Shown piece after piece: positions 18,788 through 23,704 of a stretch of 64,000 nucleotides of DNA. The notes under the pieces were generated by a model, which ran no database searches, was not told the DNA's origin, and saw only the letters and a program-made list of their open reading frames with translations. The position numbers were made by a program, and so were the translations under genes. Every line of letters begins with the position of its first letter. Within the stretch, counting starts at the first letter, position 1. This DNA is from Verrucomicrobiales bacterium (lineage in GTDB: Bacteria; Verrucomicrobiota; Verrucomicrobiia; Verrucomicrobiales; DEV007). The stretch covers positions 62,001 to 126,000 of the forward strand of contig JARGNI010000006.1 in assembly GCA_029213195.1 (NCBI GenBank), written 5' to 3'.

Positions 18788-19684
18788 ATGCTCAACTATC
18801 ACCATCTTCGCTACTTCCGAGCCATCGCCAAGGAAGGCAGCCTCACCAAGGCAGCTGCCCATCTCGGAGTTTCTCAATCCTCCCTGAGCGTCCAGCTTCG
18901 CCAGCTGGAAGAGCACTTCGGTCAGCCCCTGTTTTCTCGCGAGAGCAAATCCCTGGTCCTGACCGAAGCGGGGAGGATCGCCCTGGACTACGCGGACCTC
19001 ATTTTCCAATCCGGCGAAGAGTTGGTCAGTGTCCTCCAGAATCGACCGACTGCCCGGAGGAGGGTTCTCCGGATCGGATCGGTCGCGACCCTGTCCCGAA
19101 ACTTCCAGATCTCCTGTCTCCAACCCTTCATCGGACGGAGCGATGTCGAGTTGGTCCTGCGCTCAGGCAGCCTTCGTGACCTGCTTGGTCAGCTTCAAGC
19201 TCACACGCTCGACCTCGTCCTCTCCAATCTCCCGGTGCGCCGGGATGCCGAAACCGAATGGCACAGCCATCTTCTCGAGGAGCAGGAAGTCGCACTGATC
19301 GGGCCAAAACGTCGAGGGCGAAAAAAGTTCGTCTTTCCCGACGACCTCGAAGATACGCCCCTCGTTCTGCCCTCTCTCGACAGCAACCTGCGCGTCGCCT
19401 TCGACCTCCTTCTCGAGCAACACGGAATCCGACCTCGTATCGCCGCCGAGATCGACGACATGGCGATGCTGCGCCTCCTCGCGAGGGACGGCGCCGGTCT
19501 TGCCCTCGTGCCCCCCGTGGTCGTGGCAGGGGAACTGAAACGTGGTCAGCTCGTCGAATACCATCGCTTTTCCGAAATTCGGGAGAGTTTCTACGCCATC
19601 TCACCATCTCGACAGTTCCCCAACCCTCTCGTCGCGGAATTGATCAAAAAAGCGTCCACCCATCTCTCGGATAAAAGCTCGTAG
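18788..19684 (+). CDS. LysR-family regulator (NhaR-like)
   Basis: A 298-aa LysR-type regulator. The N-terminal winged helix-turn-helix (NYHHLRYFRAIAKEGSLTKA, then HLGVSQSSLSVQLRQLEE) starts with the N-Y-x-H-L pattern of the NhaR branch. The C-terminal substrate-binding domain runs from about residue 92. It is divergent from sbtA and has a T-N11-A inverted repeat just upstream, so it probably controls sbtA and itself in response to a sodium- or bicarbonate-linked signal. A broken copy of part of this gene lies 4 kb downstream, on the far side of the peptide-modification island, with 123 bp identical. Confidence 0.9.
   Translation: MLNYHHLRYFRAIAKEGSLTKAAAHLGVSQSSLSVQLRQLEEHFGQPLFSRESKSLVLTEAGRIALDYADLIFQSGEELVSVLQNRPTARRRVLRIGSVATLSRNFQISCLQPFIGRSDVELVLRSGSLRDLLGQLQAHTLDLVLSNLPVRRDAETEWHSHLLEEQEVALIGPKRRGRKKFVFPDDLEDTPLVLPSLDSNLRVAFDLLLEQHGIRPRIAAEIDDMAMLRLLARDGAGLALVPPVVVAGELKRGQLVEYHRFSEIRESFYAISPSRQFPNPLVAELIKKASTHLSDKSS
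19477..19599. repeat. 123-bp perfect direct repeat, copy 1 (inside intact LysR gene)
   Basis: Identical base for base to 23488-23610 (offset 4011). It begins at CCTCGCGAGGGAC and ends at TTTCTACGCCAT. After a few substitutions a further block of about 30 identical bases follows. The pair brackets the low-GC island. Confidence 0.9.
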
Positions 19685-19717: not shown

Positions 19718-21865
19718 CTAATTCGTGGATGAACTCGCAATCAGGCGAATCTTGGAAGAAAGGTATCTACGCCACCCAATGGTTCGCGCATATTCGATCC
19801 GTGTTTTCATTCCAGAGGGGCTCAGCTCCTCGGCTAGCACTTCGAGCCACTCTCGAACATTGTCGGCAAGAAGAAGATCATGAGGAAGCTTCTGCATGAG
19901 GAACCCTCCTTGACGATGATCCAACAGGGTAAAGACACGATTCCTTGCATACCCGAGCAGCCTTGATTGTCTTCTCCCTTCTGGAAAATACCCTCGCAAA
20001 TCCTCCGGAAATGCGAGATTCAAATCGTCCATCGCAATTTGCAAGGGAATCCAAAATCCCCTGGAGAGCGACATCTGCCCGACCCACCGAAGCAGCGTAT
20101 CGATGTCCAGCCCATGATCGCTGGCAGCGCCGAGGAGGTAACGGAACGCCCAGAAAGTCTTCAGACCGTGAGTATATCCTTCGTGTACCAAATGCACTGA
20201 GATATGAAGGATATTAGCCTCGGGAGAAAGAATCCGAAGCGCCTGCCACCCCTTGACGCGCTGTGAGGAAGCCAGCATTTCATTTTCTGGTAAGCTCCAC
20301 CTCCTACCCATGATCGAAGTGTGAATTTCAACCGTCACACCACTCCGCCGAAGCCCTGGAAGATGCAATGAATTCCCTGCTACCCCTACCTCTTCGAATC
20401 CGGCCTCCCGAAGAGTGTCCCAGATCAAGGTGGCTTTTTCTGGAATGACATAGAGATCGATATCTCCAGGTGTCTTACAGACAACGCGCTCGTCATCTGC
20501 TAGGCAGAGAATCATCAAGGCTGATCCCTTGAGCAGAACCCCCTCGACGTTACATTGCAAAAGAATGGCGTCCATTTTTCGAAGCACTTTTTCGACTTCG
20601 ATCAGTTTGACACTCTCAAGTCGAACCGAAGCTTCAATATCTGCCTGAAAAAAACGAGGAGCGGAATCCTTCACGATCTCGTCCTGACAAAACGGCATCA
20701 GAGCTCTCGCCAATCCATTCGCACGGATGAGCCGGGAAAGCCGATTCCAGTCCAGGTCCTGCCTTCTCACAAGATTCTCTCTCTCTTGAGTCGATGCCAG
20801 GAGAACCCCGGGGATTGCCTCCTCAAGCATCACTTTCGTGATTCCCGATCGATTTACATAAGTCTTGTTAAACTCACTTCGGTTTCGCTTCTGCTGAATC
20901 AACCGGCGCATGGATACTCTCCGAGCGACTTCCTCGGGACGGTTCAGGATATCGCGAAGAGTGGAAACCGACTCGGCATCGGAAGTAAGGTGAAGACAAA
21001 GATCACAGAGTCCGGTAAAATTCGTCTCATCGGAAGTCGTTTCACCACCCTTCTCTCGATCGATGAGGCGCTTAAGGTAGAGCGGCCCCTGGACACGAAT
21101 TGCCTCGAGGATGTCATCGTTCGCATGCCGATCCAAGAGATCTTCCATTGAGGAATCAGCCATCGATCCAACAATGAGCGGAGAAGATGTTTTTGAAAAG
21201 TAACTGGGACCATTACATGCCATCAAACGCCCATCATCTGAAATCGTAGCTCGCTCGCACGCATTACAAAATCCTTCTAGGTTTCTTCGGAACGTATCGG
21301 TATCAAACTTCAAGGCTCGTCCCACCCGCTGAACGTCATAAATCCTCAGTTCCACCGAATGAAATGACTCCAGACGATGAACAATGCCTGTAAGACCTTC
21401 ATCACCTCTCAGTCGAGTCACATTCACCTGAAACGTAAAAGCTTCGCCTTGAGCCGCCCTGGCAATGTGTTCGATCCGTTCAATCGGCAAGAATTTTTCG
21501 TGAAAAGGATCGTAGCTGATCGTCAGTTGCTTCATCCCGGCTGAGAGAAGGCGCCGTAACTTCCGCCGAGCTACAGGAAACGTTTCGCCCCACGATCCAT
21601 TTGAGGTAACGGAGGCTGTCACACCCTTGGCCGAAGCATTTGCCAGAAGCCTCAGCAGGAGATCCTCACGAAGGAGAGGCTCCCCGCCAGTAAATTGGAT
21701 GGCGCGAACCCCGGATCGAATCGATTCTTCCACATACCGTTCTAACTCCCCATCCGACGGCTGGTCTTTGAGGGAGGGCGAACTCGCTACGCTGCAGTGC
21801 GAACAAGAGATATTGCACCTTCTCGTGAGCATGATAGCGACTTGCGATCGAGATGTTAAGATCAC
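19718..21865 (-). CDS. Radical SAM/SPASM-like enzyme fused to a nucleotidyltransferase domain
   Basis: A 715-aa two-domain protein. The radical SAM core has CNISCSHC (Cys17, 21, 24) and FTGGEPLL (58-65). Further Cys pairs at 200/203, 217 and 287/290 (FCNAC, LMACNG, CDLCLHL) look like a SPASM-type auxiliary iron-sulfur region. From about residue 430 comes a nucleotidyltransferase of the NTP_transf_5 type: VLLKGSALM (444-452) and PGDIDLYV (466-473) supply the Lys-Gly and Asp-x-Asp metal-binding motifs. SPASM radical SAM enzymes modify ribosomal peptides, and NTases add a nucleotide to a protein or small molecule. Fused, they could install and cap a modification on the small peptide encoded upstream. 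The start overlaps the kinase-like gene by 4 bp. Hand-counted lines are 40-42 % GC, well below the flanks. Confidence 0.85.
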   Translation of the reverse strand: MILTSRSQVAIMLTRRCNISCSHCSVASSPSLKDQPSDGELERYVEESIRSGVRAIQFTGGEPLLREDLLLRLLANASAKGVTASVTSNGSWGETFPVARRKLRRLLSAGMKQLTISYDPFHEKFLPIERIEHIARAAQGEAFTFQVNVTRLRGDEGLTGIVHRLESFHSVELRIYDVQRVGRALKFDTDTFRRNLEGFCNACERATISDDGRLMACNGPSYFSKTSSPLIVGSMADSSMEDLLDRHANDDILEAIRVQGPLYLKRLIDREKGGETTSDETNFTGLCDLCLHLTSDAESVSTLRDILNRPEEVARRVSMRRLIQQKRNRSEFNKTYVNRSGITKVMLEEAIPGVLLASTQERENLVRRQDLDWNRLSRLIRANGLARALMPFCQDEIVKDSAPRFFQADIEASVRLESVKLIEVEKVLRKMDAILLQCNVEGVLLKGSALMILCLADDERVVCKTPGDIDLYVIPEKATLIWDTLREAGFEEVGVAGNSLHLPGLRRSGVTVEIHTSIMGRRWSLPENEMLASSQRVKGWQALRILSPEANILHISVHLVHEGYTHGLKTFWAFRYLLGAASDHGLDIDTLLRWVGQMSLSRGFWIPLQIAMDDLNLAFPEDLRGYFPEGRRQSRLLGYARNRVFTLLDHRQGGFLMQKLPHDLLLADNVREWLEVLAEELSPSGMKTRIEYARTIGWRRYLSSKIRLIASSSTN

Positions 21866-22776
21866 TCATCCTGCTTCAGGCTGACTTCACTAGCGATTTC
21901 CGCCAATCGATCCCGCATCAGCGAGATCTCACTCCGATCTATTCGAAAGACAGGGGTGCTCCCAAGGTGGGATCCCCACCAGACAATCTGTTCATGGATC
22001 GTTTCGTATTCTCTTCGTGTCGTACACTGCAACAGATCGCGAGCCGCGGTTGCCAGGTTCAGTCGCTCTATGCTGAGACAACTTCGAACTTTTCCTGACA
22101 AAATCACAATTCCTAGAACACTGAGGTTTCGACTTGGCATCGGTTCTCGGAGCGAATCAGGGTAGAACAAATGCCGAGTCACGCTGCCACTATTCTCTCC
22201 ACGCACCGAGCCGAACTGGACCATCGAAATTTTCCTGCGCGTTGACTCATGGATCAAATCCAGGCAATCAGGCCTGAGTGAGACACGCCGCGGTATCGGA
22301 ACGGATTTCAGCATCCCACCCTCTCCAATTTTGAGAAGGCATCGGTCATCCGATAGGAGATCCCAACCATTCTCCCACAACGAGACCCCAAGGGTTGACT
22401 TGCCTGATCTACTCCGCCCCAAAAGGAGCAGCACTCCCTTGCTACTCGATGCCACCAGCGCTCCGTGCACTGCCACGACTTCAGGGGCACTCTGCCTCAT
22501 CGCCTCACCACAAACATACTGCTCAATCTGAGCAAGAATTGCGTTGGGATCCCGGTGCTGAATTTCTGCTTCCCACTGCCCCTGAAAACCAAGTATCCAA
22601 GTATGCGACTCTTCTTCGGATGGCCTTAGCGACAGGTGCTCTGAAAAAGCTCCGTGGTCATCACTCTGGCGAGGAACGTTAGCGATCAAGTGTTTCCAGC
22701 CATCTTCGACGACCGAATGTTCAGACTCCAGGCAAAATCGCCGATCAAGAATTGGCAGTAACTTCAGTTTCGACAT
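21862..22776 (-). CDS. HPr-kinase-like P-loop protein
   Basis: A 304-aa protein with the C-terminal fold of HPr kinase/phosphorylase. GRSRSGKST (120-128) is the Walker A loop, followed after 14 residues by SDDRCLL (Asp143-144), the motif seen in HprK-like kinases; VHGALVASSSKGVLLLLG is the preceding strand. It is much shorter than carbon-control HprK and there is no HPr gene nearby, so a role in phosphotransfer control is unlikely. HprK homologues occur in lasso-peptide and in PqqD-linked clusters, where at least one (from a Paenibacillus lasso cluster) phosphorylates a peptide Ser. By analogy it may phosphorylate the 46-aa peptide encoded upstream. It is coupled by a 4-bp overlap to the radical SAM gene. 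Confidence 0.8.
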   Translation of the reverse strand: MSKLKLLPILDRRFCLESEHSVVEDGWKHLIANVPRQSDDHGAFSEHLSLRPSEEESHTWILGFQGQWEAEIQHRDPNAILAQIEQYVCGEAMRQSAPEVVAVHGALVASSSKGVLLLLGRSRSGKSTLGVSLWENGWDLLSDDRCLLKIGEGGMLKSVPIPRRVSLRPDCLDLIHESTRRKISMVQFGSVRGENSGSVTRHLFYPDSLREPMPSRNLSVLGIVILSGKVRSCLSIERLNLATAARDLLQCTTRREYETIHEQIVWWGSHLGSTPVFRIDRSEISLMRDRLAEIASEVSLKQDE

Positions 22777-22797
22777 GGAAGCTGCTACCGGAGTGAC

Positions 22798-23070
22798 TTA
22801 ATCCAACCGTTCTACCAACTGGTGGGTCAGGAGTTTACCGAGAAACTGTTCGACATCTTTTTCTACTGTTTCCTGAGAAAGAGAGGGATACCATTGCCTA
22901 AGCAGCCCTTCGAGAGCGGTTGAGTCAAAGTTTCCTTTACCTTCCATCGCCTCCCATAGACGACTGCCCGTGGTGTTCAAAATCACTGACTCAGAACCAT
23001 CGACGAGCGCTACGACCATACGATCTCCCGCTTGCGAACAGATTATGTCAGATCTGATTCCAAATTTCAT
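22798..23070 (-). CDS. PqqD-like peptide recognition protein (RRE)
   Basis: A 90-aa protein of PqqD size and layout: two N-terminal strands (RMVVALVDGSESVILNTTGSRLWEAMEG) and a C-terminal helical half (LEGLLRQWYP, VEKDVEQFLGKLLTHQLVERL). PqqD-like RiPP recognition elements bind the leader of a precursor peptide and hand it to a radical SAM enzyme. I chose the ATG at 23070; the frame stays open to 23190, but that longer form would overlap the small peptide gene and reads as non-coding (Arg/Pro/Trp-rich). It lies 58 bp after the peptide gene and 21 bp before the kinase-like gene. Confidence 0.82.
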   Translation of the reverse strand: MKFGIRSDIICSQAGDRMVVALVDGSESVILNTTGSRLWEAMEGKGNFDSTALEGLLRQWYPSLSQETVEKDVEQFLGKLLTHQLVERLD

Positions 23071-23128
23071 AGGGGCGCGAAGTCGCGCGAGTGCACGGAA
23101 TAGCCGCTGAGGATCAGCACTGAGTTCA

Positions 23129-23269
23129 CTATAATACCACACCCGAGCCCACCGGGGCACCACCGGCGTAAAGCACTTCCTGTACGACATCTTCAGAAGA
23201 GATTACCTCTTCCACGTCGGGAGCGGCATATTCTTCTTCGGCTTGATCTTCATTATGTAGAAAGGACAT
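23129..23269 (-). CDS. Candidate RiPP precursor peptide, 46 aa
   Basis: A 46-codon ORF, ATG at 23269 and TAG at 23129-23131, found by hand-translating the minus strand; it is the first gene of the island. The leader (residues 1-33) has eleven Asp/Glu residues, no Lys or Arg and one His (His5), and contains a helical VEEVISSEDVVQEVL segment. The C-terminal tail is YAGGAPVGSGVVL, with a Gly-Gly after which a leader could be cut. Ser42 is the only Ser in the tail and a natural target for the HprK-like enzyme; Tyr34 is another candidate for radical modification. There is no Cys, and no Asp/Glu in the tail, which argues against lanthipeptide or lasso chemistry. No Shine-Dalgarno is close to the ATG, but GAGGAACGCGAGG ends 14 bp upstream. 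The ORF is short and there is no homology check, so the call rests on position, composition and the partners. Confidence 0.65.
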   Translation of the reverse strand: MSFLHNEDQAEEEYAAPDVEEVISSEDVVQEVLYAGGAPVGSGVVL

Positions 23270-23361: not shown

Positions 23362-23704
23362 AATCGAGTAGTTCGGATCGGGTCGGTCGCGACTCTTTCG
23401 AGAAACTTCCAGATTTCCTATCTCCAGCCATTTACTGGAAAGATCAATGTGGAACTTGTCCTGCGATCCGGAAGTCTTCGAGACCGCCCTCGCGAGGGAC
23501 GGCGCCGGTCTTGCCCTCGTGCCCCCCGTGGTCGTGGCAGGGGAACTGAAACGTGGTCAGCTCGTCGAATACCATCGCTTTTCCGAAATTCGGGAGAGTT
23601 TCTACGCCATTTCTCCCTCTCGACAGTTCCCCAACCCTCTCGTCGCGGAACTCATTGAGAAGGCGGCTGAAACTCGCCGAGGAGCCCCAAAGGGTAATCG
23701 ATAA
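23362..23704 (+). pseudogene. Truncated, frameshifted copy of the LysR gene
   Basis: Two pieces of the LysR effector domain lie in different frames. The first (VRIGSVATLSRNFQISYLQP, frame of 23344) matches the intact gene at about 19065-19180 with roughly three-quarters identity by eye. The second (LARDGAGLALVPPVVVAGEL onward, frame of 23447, stop at 23704) matches 19477-19684. The roughly 100 intervening residues and the DNA-binding domain are missing. The first 123 bp of the second piece are identical to the intact gene. It is therefore a remnant of a diverged homologue, part of which is a recent copy or conversion tract. Confidence 0.85.
23488..23610. repeat. 123-bp perfect direct repeat, copy 2 (inside LysR remnant)
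   Basis: Identical to 19477-19599. The copies are 4,011 bp apart, in the same orientation, and bracket the precursor-peptide island. At the upstream edge of this copy the sequence switches from diverged LysR DNA to the identical block, which marks a recombination junction. Confidence 0.9.

Follow-up and report, generated by a model that had tools for sequence, protein, structure and literature searches.

A putative peptide-modifying cassette with lasso-type tailoring genes and a radical SAM-nucleotidyltransferase fusion in a Verrucomicrobiales bacterium

The four-gene cassette and its conservation

We analyzed a 64-kb stretch of contig JARGNI010000006.1 from a Verrucomicrobiales bacterium (assembly GCA_029213195.1), referred to here as the window. 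On its minus strand, from 23269 to 19718, four successive genes encode a 46-amino-acid (aa) peptide, a PqqD-like protein, an HprK-like kinase, and a fusion of a radical S-adenosylmethionine (SAM) enzyme with a nucleotidyltransferase. The cassette very probably makes a ribosomally synthesized and post-translationally modified peptide (RiPP). Its features, some of them shared with cassettes at two further loci (L017 and L094), are as follows.

23129..23269, minus strand: precursor peptide gene, 46 aa, MSFLHNEDQAEEEYAAPDVEEVISSEDVVQEVLYAGGAPVGSGVVL; homologues at the equivalent place in L017 and L094, and a motif control
22798..23070, minus strand: PqqD-like RiPP recognition element, 90 aa, start uncertain; PF05402, 1.7e-9
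21862..22776, minus strand: HprK-like peptide kinase, 304 aa, with H104-K126-D143-D144; HprK_rel_A, 4.5e-12, below cut-off; His-Lys-Asp-Asp in 9/9
19718..21865, minus strand: radical SAM-nucleotidyltransferase fusion of 715 aa, starting with GTG; the two parts are also fused in L017 and L094
20876..21865, minus strand: EpeE/YydG-type radical SAM domain, about residues 1-330 of the fusion; C17-C21-C24 cluster motif
20039..20758, minus strand: NTP_transf_5 nucleotidyltransferase domain, residues 370-609 of the fusion; PF14907, 1.8e-18
23213..23230, minus strand: leader motif YAAPDV, residues 14-19, of the lasso type YxxPx[L/I/V]; Y14, A16, and P17 kept in 3/3
23132..23179, minus strand: predicted core EVLYAGGAPVGSGVVL, residues 31-46; boundary inferred from lasso spacing

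An earlier note, made from the sequence alone, had reported four minus-strand open reading frames (ORFs) here, and all were recovered at the same coordinates and strand, together with the 4-bp overlap of the kinase and fusion genes at 21862-21865. The Walker A sequence GRSRSGKST and Asp143-144 that it described in the kinase were both seen, in addition to H104 and K126. Its proviso that the PqqD-like protein might turn out to be unrelated is settled by the Pfam match, which lies above the cut-off, as do those to Radical_SAM (3.3e-15) and NTP_transf_5. It had also called the fusion a radical SAM/SPASM-like enzyme with a nucleotidyltransferase. The Pfam matches bear out the radical SAM and NTP_transf_5 parts but not SPASM, as the nearest families are EpeE/YydG. 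If translation began at 23190 rather than 23070, the PqqD protein would have 130 aa instead of 90, and its gene would overlap that of the peptide. Hpr_kinase_C fell below the Pfam cut-off in the window kinase (1.3e-4; 22.0 bits versus 33.3). The best NCBIfam match of the PqqD protein was lasso_PqqD_Bac (8e-5; 22.7 bits versus a cut-off of 80), and that of the kinase was HprK_rel_A (TIGR04352; 45.7 bits versus 200). The 46-aa peptide had no NCBIfam or Pfam match, and the kinase had no match among PDB sequences. Promoter and terminator signals in the window were no more frequent than in shuffled sequence, and a tRNA scan of the 64 kb found none.

The same gene order with conserved peptide tails, which the earlier note had suggested looking for elsewhere, was found in two further genomes. 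G410, of the same genus, carries the precursor, PqqD, kinase, and a 728-aa fusion (L017), and G534, of the same class but another family, carries all four genes on a 4.8-kb contig (L094). The fusions of these two genomes share 41% and 36% identity with the window fusion.

The short upstream ORF, whose conservation the earlier note had treated as decisive, is present at the same position in both. In all three precursors a YxAPx[V/I] leader motif is followed by an ExxYAG block and then a PxG[S/T] tail, and the core residues E31, Y34, A35, G36, P39, and G41 are invariant. Ser42 is the sole Ser/Thr of the window core. Across the fusion precursors the conserved Ser is the sole Ser/Thr in two of three cores, and the third core (G534) has four. 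The lasso leader motif YxxPxL occupies positions -17 to -12 in the bsf study (PMC10368454). The Tyr-to-Glu spacing in 3/3 peptides matches the lasso -17: with Tyr14 at that position, all three predicted cores start at the invariant Glu, and a core beginning at E31 puts YAAPDV at -17 to -12. A joint leader-and-tail pattern, devised after the three peptides were known, matched only the cassette peptides in 1.24 Mb of partly redundant DNA (14 matches, which are 3 distinct peptides repeated across overlapping loci) and gave 0 matches in 200 mononucleotide-shuffled windows. A chance ORF is ruled out by the conservation in 3/3 and this pattern control.

The fusion is rare. It was found in 2/74 genomes of the family, 2/386 of the window's order, and 1/213 of the order of G534, the family and order samples being overlapping; the third match among the 386 genomes was a stand-alone enzyme. 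A profile of the radical SAM domain matched 15/384 genomes of the class. In the phyla of loci L027 (2/236 sampled genomes matching) and L025 (9/232), stand-alone EpeE-like enzymes were found and no fusion. A scan of genome contigs with the window protein as the sole query returned no loci. The second scan returned 53 loci with one full-length relative, L024, which has the same domain scores and peptide as G410; it did not pick up G534, whose sequence deviates from the search patterns. The three fusions group together in a tree (98/99), and this grouping alone is used, as the branches of the radical SAM tree are long and its root is uncertain. No relative was found in a scan of viral contigs and no match in phages, and thus there is no sign of a phage origin.

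Radical SAM, kinase, and nucleotidyltransferase domains

In NCBIfam the fusion best matches TIGR04078, the YydG family of radical SAM peptide epimerases (1.4e-29), over profile positions 3-305 of 309. Despite this full-length match, the equivalog cut-off was not reached (103.6 bits versus 300). EpeE (YydG) entries 8ai1-8ai6 came out on top of the PDB sequence search (3.6e-14), and all nine fold matches of the fusion structure model at E ≤ 1e-3 are EpeE chains. C17, C21, and C24 (CxxxCxxC), together with C200, C217, C287, and C290, are invariant in 6/6 aligned enzymes. The alignment makes the last four likely auxiliary-cluster ligands. With these four taken as ligands, C203 is left over as an extra cysteine, which is present in the three fusions and absent from nine enzymes of family f5, a family of the same class with non-fused relatives.

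EpeE removes a C-alpha hydrogen, and Cys223 has been proposed to give one back (PMC8326336). The position of EpeE Cys223, marked in the alignment by the chain of a C223A mutant, is Asn218 in all three fusions. These read FCNAC...ACNGPSYF, whereas 9/9 non-fused f5 relatives read ACCGPS. Among more distant radical SAM relatives, three have CC, G481 has GCIGP, and six read otherwise or were not matched by the pattern. G481 comes from an unrelated context, so the hydrogen-donor Cys has been lost outside the fusions as well. C203 may replace the donor, or else the reaction may have changed.

The set of H104, K126, D143, and D144 is invariant in 9/9 kinases, and residues K446, D468-I469-D470, and E513 of the NTP_transf_5 domain are invariant across the three fusions. 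PadeK and ThcoK use a His-Lys-Asp-Asp set to phosphorylate a Ser at the C terminus, and PsmN puts hexoses on the phosphorylated Ser or possibly nucleotides first (reviewed in PMC9266682 and PMC8498205). PsmK and PsmN together bring about the phospho-glycosylation of a lasso peptide (PMC9266682, PMC8498205), and in several lasso cases a nucleotidyltransferase is fused to the B2 protein (PMC8498205). In the bsf system the target of BsfK is Ser3 of the core, and BsfB1 accelerates phosphorylation; Ala substitutions in the leader motif left BsfK phosphorylation going (PMC10368454). The role of the motif in the kinase step is therefore uncertain. Rumen lasso clusters frequently have an HPr kinase, PqqD, and an uncharacterized nucleotidyltransferase (PMC7533575). 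We found a PF14907 protein (2.7e-33), PqqD, and B2 in the annotated Antarctobacter lasso cluster, where a Hpr_kinase_C-like protein matched weakly (6.3e-4, below the cut-off). The analogy for the kinase and nucleotidyltransferase is firmer than the earlier note had said, because the pair has been described experimentally in lasso peptides.

Non-fused relatives and known systems

In family f5 the radical SAM enzyme is unfused and occurs in two genera. In the first, g20 (five genomes), it is found with a kinase, PqqD, and a separate NTP_transf_5 gene (413 aa in G042; Pfam 1.9e-40). The g20 clusters (L009-L012 and L103) also encode two proteins with an LE[S/A]RxLFAA motif (5/5) and a conserved protein of about 63 aa (4/5). 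The kinase reading frame is broken in two of them, L010 and L012.

In the second genus, g47 (four genomes, L095-L098), the radical SAM gene lies inside a lasso cluster, between the kinase and the precursor. The B2 protein has Transglut_core3 in 4/4 and was above the NF033537 cut-off in 2/2 tested. A lasso-cyclase-like protein is present in 4/4 (NF033535, 454-463 bits versus a cut-off of 525), PqqD and a kinase accompany it, and NTP_transf_5 is found by Pfam in 4/4; in G510 (L095) it is fused to B2. All four precursors have Thr(-2) and Asp8, and the one tested matched the NF033521 lasso leader (27.6 versus a cut-off of 19). These clusters suggest lasso peptides that are edited by a radical SAM enzyme. 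No report of such a peptide was noticed in the open-licence literature, which is weak evidence of absence.

Kinase, PqqD, and nucleotidyltransferase genes go with the radical SAM enzymes that score highest against the radical SAM profile. HprK-like, PqqD, and NTP_transf_5 genes were carried by 12/12 loci in which the radical SAM enzyme scored at least 232 bits, versus any of the three at E ≤ 1e-3 in 0/21 loci scoring 63-186 bits, five of which are of the same class. The 12 positive loci represent three lineages (3 fusion loci, 5 of one genus, and 4 of another). The profiles were built in this analysis and several positive loci were seeds; none of the NTP_transf_5 seeds came from the four lasso-cluster genomes, and all four still match. 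The 21 negatives were picked by a radical SAM score of at least 63 bits, so that loci with weaker enzymes fall outside the count, and some lie on short contigs (L137, 3.1 kb; L144, 4.5 kb; L114, 5.3 kb).

Other gene arrangements were seen around EpeE-like enzymes. In L100-L102 a protein of about 170-240 aa ([FI]NxF..DD...LPxGA) is encoded immediately before the radical SAM gene, forming a different two-gene module, and by eye the layout of L021-L023 resembles it. Two tested proteins of this type of module had no confident NCBIfam family. The enzyme in L114 (G1029) stands alone, and an adjoining 79-aa ORF may be a precursor of another type.

Among known systems, the lasso tailoring sets of paeninodin (PadeK), pseudomycoidin (PsmK/PsmN), and bsf share with the cassette a PqqD-like B1, an HprK-like kinase, an NTP_transf_5-type protein, and the YxxPx[hydrophobic] leader motif at equal spacing. 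The Antarctobacter lasso protein is PF14907, as PsmN may be too. The nucleotidyltransferase is fused to B2 in the lasso clusters (PMC8498205; L095) and to the radical SAM enzyme in the cassette, which differs further in having no B2, cyclase, Thr(-2), or ring acid. The epipeptide system (YydF/EpeX with EpeE/YydG) has a radical SAM enzyme similar from end to end, with the radical SAM cluster motif and the four likely auxiliary-cluster cysteines in common. In contrast to it, the cassette has Asn at the position of the hydrogen-donor Cys223, a fused nucleotidyltransferase, a PqqD leader binder, and a kinase; no likeness between the precursors was noticed.

SynChlorMet (ScmC, ScmD, ScmE, and ScmF; TIGR04248-04251) is a catalogued, uncharacterized cassette that likewise combines radical SAM, PqqD-like, and HprK-like proteins, but its families name neither an EpeE-type fusion nor a lasso-type leader. 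The cassette does not belong to it: the fusion reached 27.5 for ScmE versus a cut-off of 400, ScmF was not among the best 25 of 57 families, and the window kinase and PqqD gave no NCBIfam match to ScmC or ScmD. The earlier note had drawn a tie to the HPr-rel-A system (TIGR04352/TIGR04353). That system also pairs an HprK-related kinase with a PqqD-like partner, but its named families include no radical SAM fusion and no precursor. Membership was rejected and the tie not upheld, as both families remained under their cut-offs (45.7 bits versus 200 for TIGR04352; 15.4 versus 35 for TIGR04353).

No paper naming HPr-rel-A, SynChlorMet, or PF14907 was found in the open-licence literature. For the combination of radical SAM, HprK-type kinase, PqqD, and nucleotidyltransferase, this literature yielded lasso papers and a Paenibacillus genome-mining paper. 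The excerpts of one genome-mining paper mention an HPr kinase in lasso clusters and do not show this gene set. The excerpts of a paper on RiPP recognition elements contain no HPr or nucleotidyltransferase.

Proposed pathway, alternatives, and genomic setting

On balance, we think that the cassette is a RiPP system with a linear precursor, on which the lasso module of PqqD/B1, kinase, and nucleotidyltransferase acts alongside a radical SAM enzyme of the EpeE type, the latter taking the place of the lasso protease and cyclase. Building on the observed gene content, homology, and conservation, we propose four chemical steps. The motif and the protein family suggest that PqqD would bind the YxAPx[V/I] leader and present the core. 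By analogy with PadeK, ThcoK, and BsfK, the HprK-like kinase would then phosphorylate the conserved hydroxyl of PxG[S/T], Ser42 in the window, and phosphorylation at this Ser/Thr is more probable than not. Following the precedent of PsmN, the NTP_transf_5 domain may move a hexose or a nucleotide onto the Ser42 phosphate; the chances for and against such capping are about even. The fused radical SAM domain would abstract a hydrogen atom within the invariant ExxYAG block. If Cys203 substitutes for the donor Cys, the outcome would be altered stereochemistry; if not, it would be an oxidation, for instance a cross-link. The earlier note inferred a ribosomal peptide that the system modifies, phosphorylates, and perhaps nucleotidylates. 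The peptide ORF, the gene order, and PqqD lend this support, and the modification itself stays a prediction.

Several observations weigh against this proposal. Only three fusion cassettes were found in all, one of them on the 4.8-kb contig, and every NCBIfam match of the window proteins is under its curated cut-off. Four residues follow Ser42, so the window peptide departs from the C-terminal Ser rule of the paeninodin-type kinases, and the hydrogen-donor Cys of EpeE is missing. The kinase model, which matches PEPCK and HprK structures, is of low confidence (mean predicted local distance difference test score [pLDDT] of 57.8), as is the fusion model (mean pLDDT of 61.1), which was built on a three-row alignment. 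Superposition on EpeE is poor (TM-score to target of 0.46-0.49; root mean square deviation of about 14), and the nucleotidyltransferase half is without structural support because no fold other than EpeE was matched at E ≤ 1e-3. No protease or exporter was recognized among the six nearest neighbors, farther ORFs being inspected by eye only. The association of the genes is also imperfect at its edges. In L019 (G415, same genus), HprK-like, PqqD-like, and NTP_transf_5 genes stand together without a radical SAM gene, and in L058, which lies outside the count and was also a profile seed, NTP_transf_5 and a very weak kinase match (0.0036) are found near a distant radical SAM enzyme (31.9 bits).

A less probable but serious alternative keeps the RiPP cassette and changes its radical chemistry, with the enzyme oxidatively cross-linking the peptide (for example, joining Glu31 and Tyr34) or oxidizing it in some other way instead of epimerizing. 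E31 and Y34 are invariant in 3/3 precursors, PQQ (pyrroloquinoline quinone) biosynthesis, which is PqqD dependent, joins a Glu and a Tyr, and the fusions have Asn where 9/9 non-fused f5 relatives keep the donor Cys. However, the nearest solved relative and all nine fold matches are the epimerase EpeE, the extra Cys203 of all three fusions could serve as the hydrogen donor, and the donor Cys has also been lost outside the fusions (G481, GCIGP). The PqqD protein, radical SAM enzyme, short precursor, and conserved Glu and Tyr would also suit a peptide from which a small redox cofactor or signal is made, as for PQQ or mycofactocin, and no exporter was recognized beside the cassette. We regard this as improbable. 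To our knowledge, a peptide kinase and a nucleotidyltransferase are not part of the PQQ and mycofactocin pathways, and no dehydrogenase typical of them is among the six nearest neighbors, although one of these, PdxA, is an oxidoreductase of vitamin B6 synthesis.

The remaining two alternatives are more doubtful still. The HprK_rel_A and PqqD_rel_X families among the NCBIfam matches could point to a regulatory, HPr-rel-A-like system whose enzymes act on a protein or on a metabolite, with the short ORF as a bystander. However, both matches are under cut-off, and the short ORF, which keeps its sequence and its place in 3/3, is backed by the pattern control; such a system is very unlikely. Least likely of all is an ordinary lasso cluster with B2 and the cyclase encoded elsewhere in the genome. 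The lasso-like leader motif and the B1, kinase, and nucleotidyltransferase genes would fit it, but B2 (NF033537) was found in 0/3 fusion genomes (86-95% complete) and was detected in the control G493. Neither a cyclase nor B2 was found in the window, L017, or L094 (4.8 kb), with L095 as a positive control, the cyclase search being confined to these loci and not genome-wide. Moreover, Thr(-2) and an acidic residue at core positions 7-9 are absent from 3/3 fusion precursors, while both are present in 4/4 related lasso precursors. Without B2, cyclase, Thr(-2), and ring-closing acid, the fusion cassettes therefore do not appear to be lasso makers.

The six nearest neighbors of the cassette are a prolyl-oligopeptidase/esterase-like hydrolase (2 kb off, on the opposite strand), a bicarbonate-transporter family protein, two LysR regulators, a sugar-binding-domain kinase-like protein, and PdxA. 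None is an obvious partner for leader removal or export. One further feature lies beyond the precursor gene.

23374..23650, no strand assigned: remnant of a second copy of LysR (gene at 18788-19684), located across the cassette from it; 98% identity over 163 bp and 78% over 112 bp

This decayed partial copy, which corresponds to 19070-19639, flanks the cassette and may have been left by an insertion or duplication. The homologous LysR-transporter pair of G410 is on a different contig from its cassette, and no cassette lies within the 12 kb examined. The remnant and the arrangement in G410 would suit acquisition by insertion. An empty site was absent from the four same-genus LysR loci examined, none of which has the sugar-binding-domain gene beside LysR.

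The cassette ties together two RiPP families that had been thought separate. We tentatively suggest, as somewhat short of an even prospect, that it represents a new RiPP class, descended from lasso clusters through gain of an EpeE-type radical SAM enzyme and loss of the protease and cyclase, with radical SAM-edited lasso peptides as the intermediate. Its products would be linear peptides with a radical edit in ExxYAG and a capped phospho-Ser/Thr in PxG[S/T], made with the help of a fusion that has two active sites. The fusions are a natural experiment on how an EpeE-like enzyme behaves after the loss of its hydrogen-donor Cys, and they place the poorly understood pair of kinase and NTP_transf_5 on a linear, readily assayed substrate.

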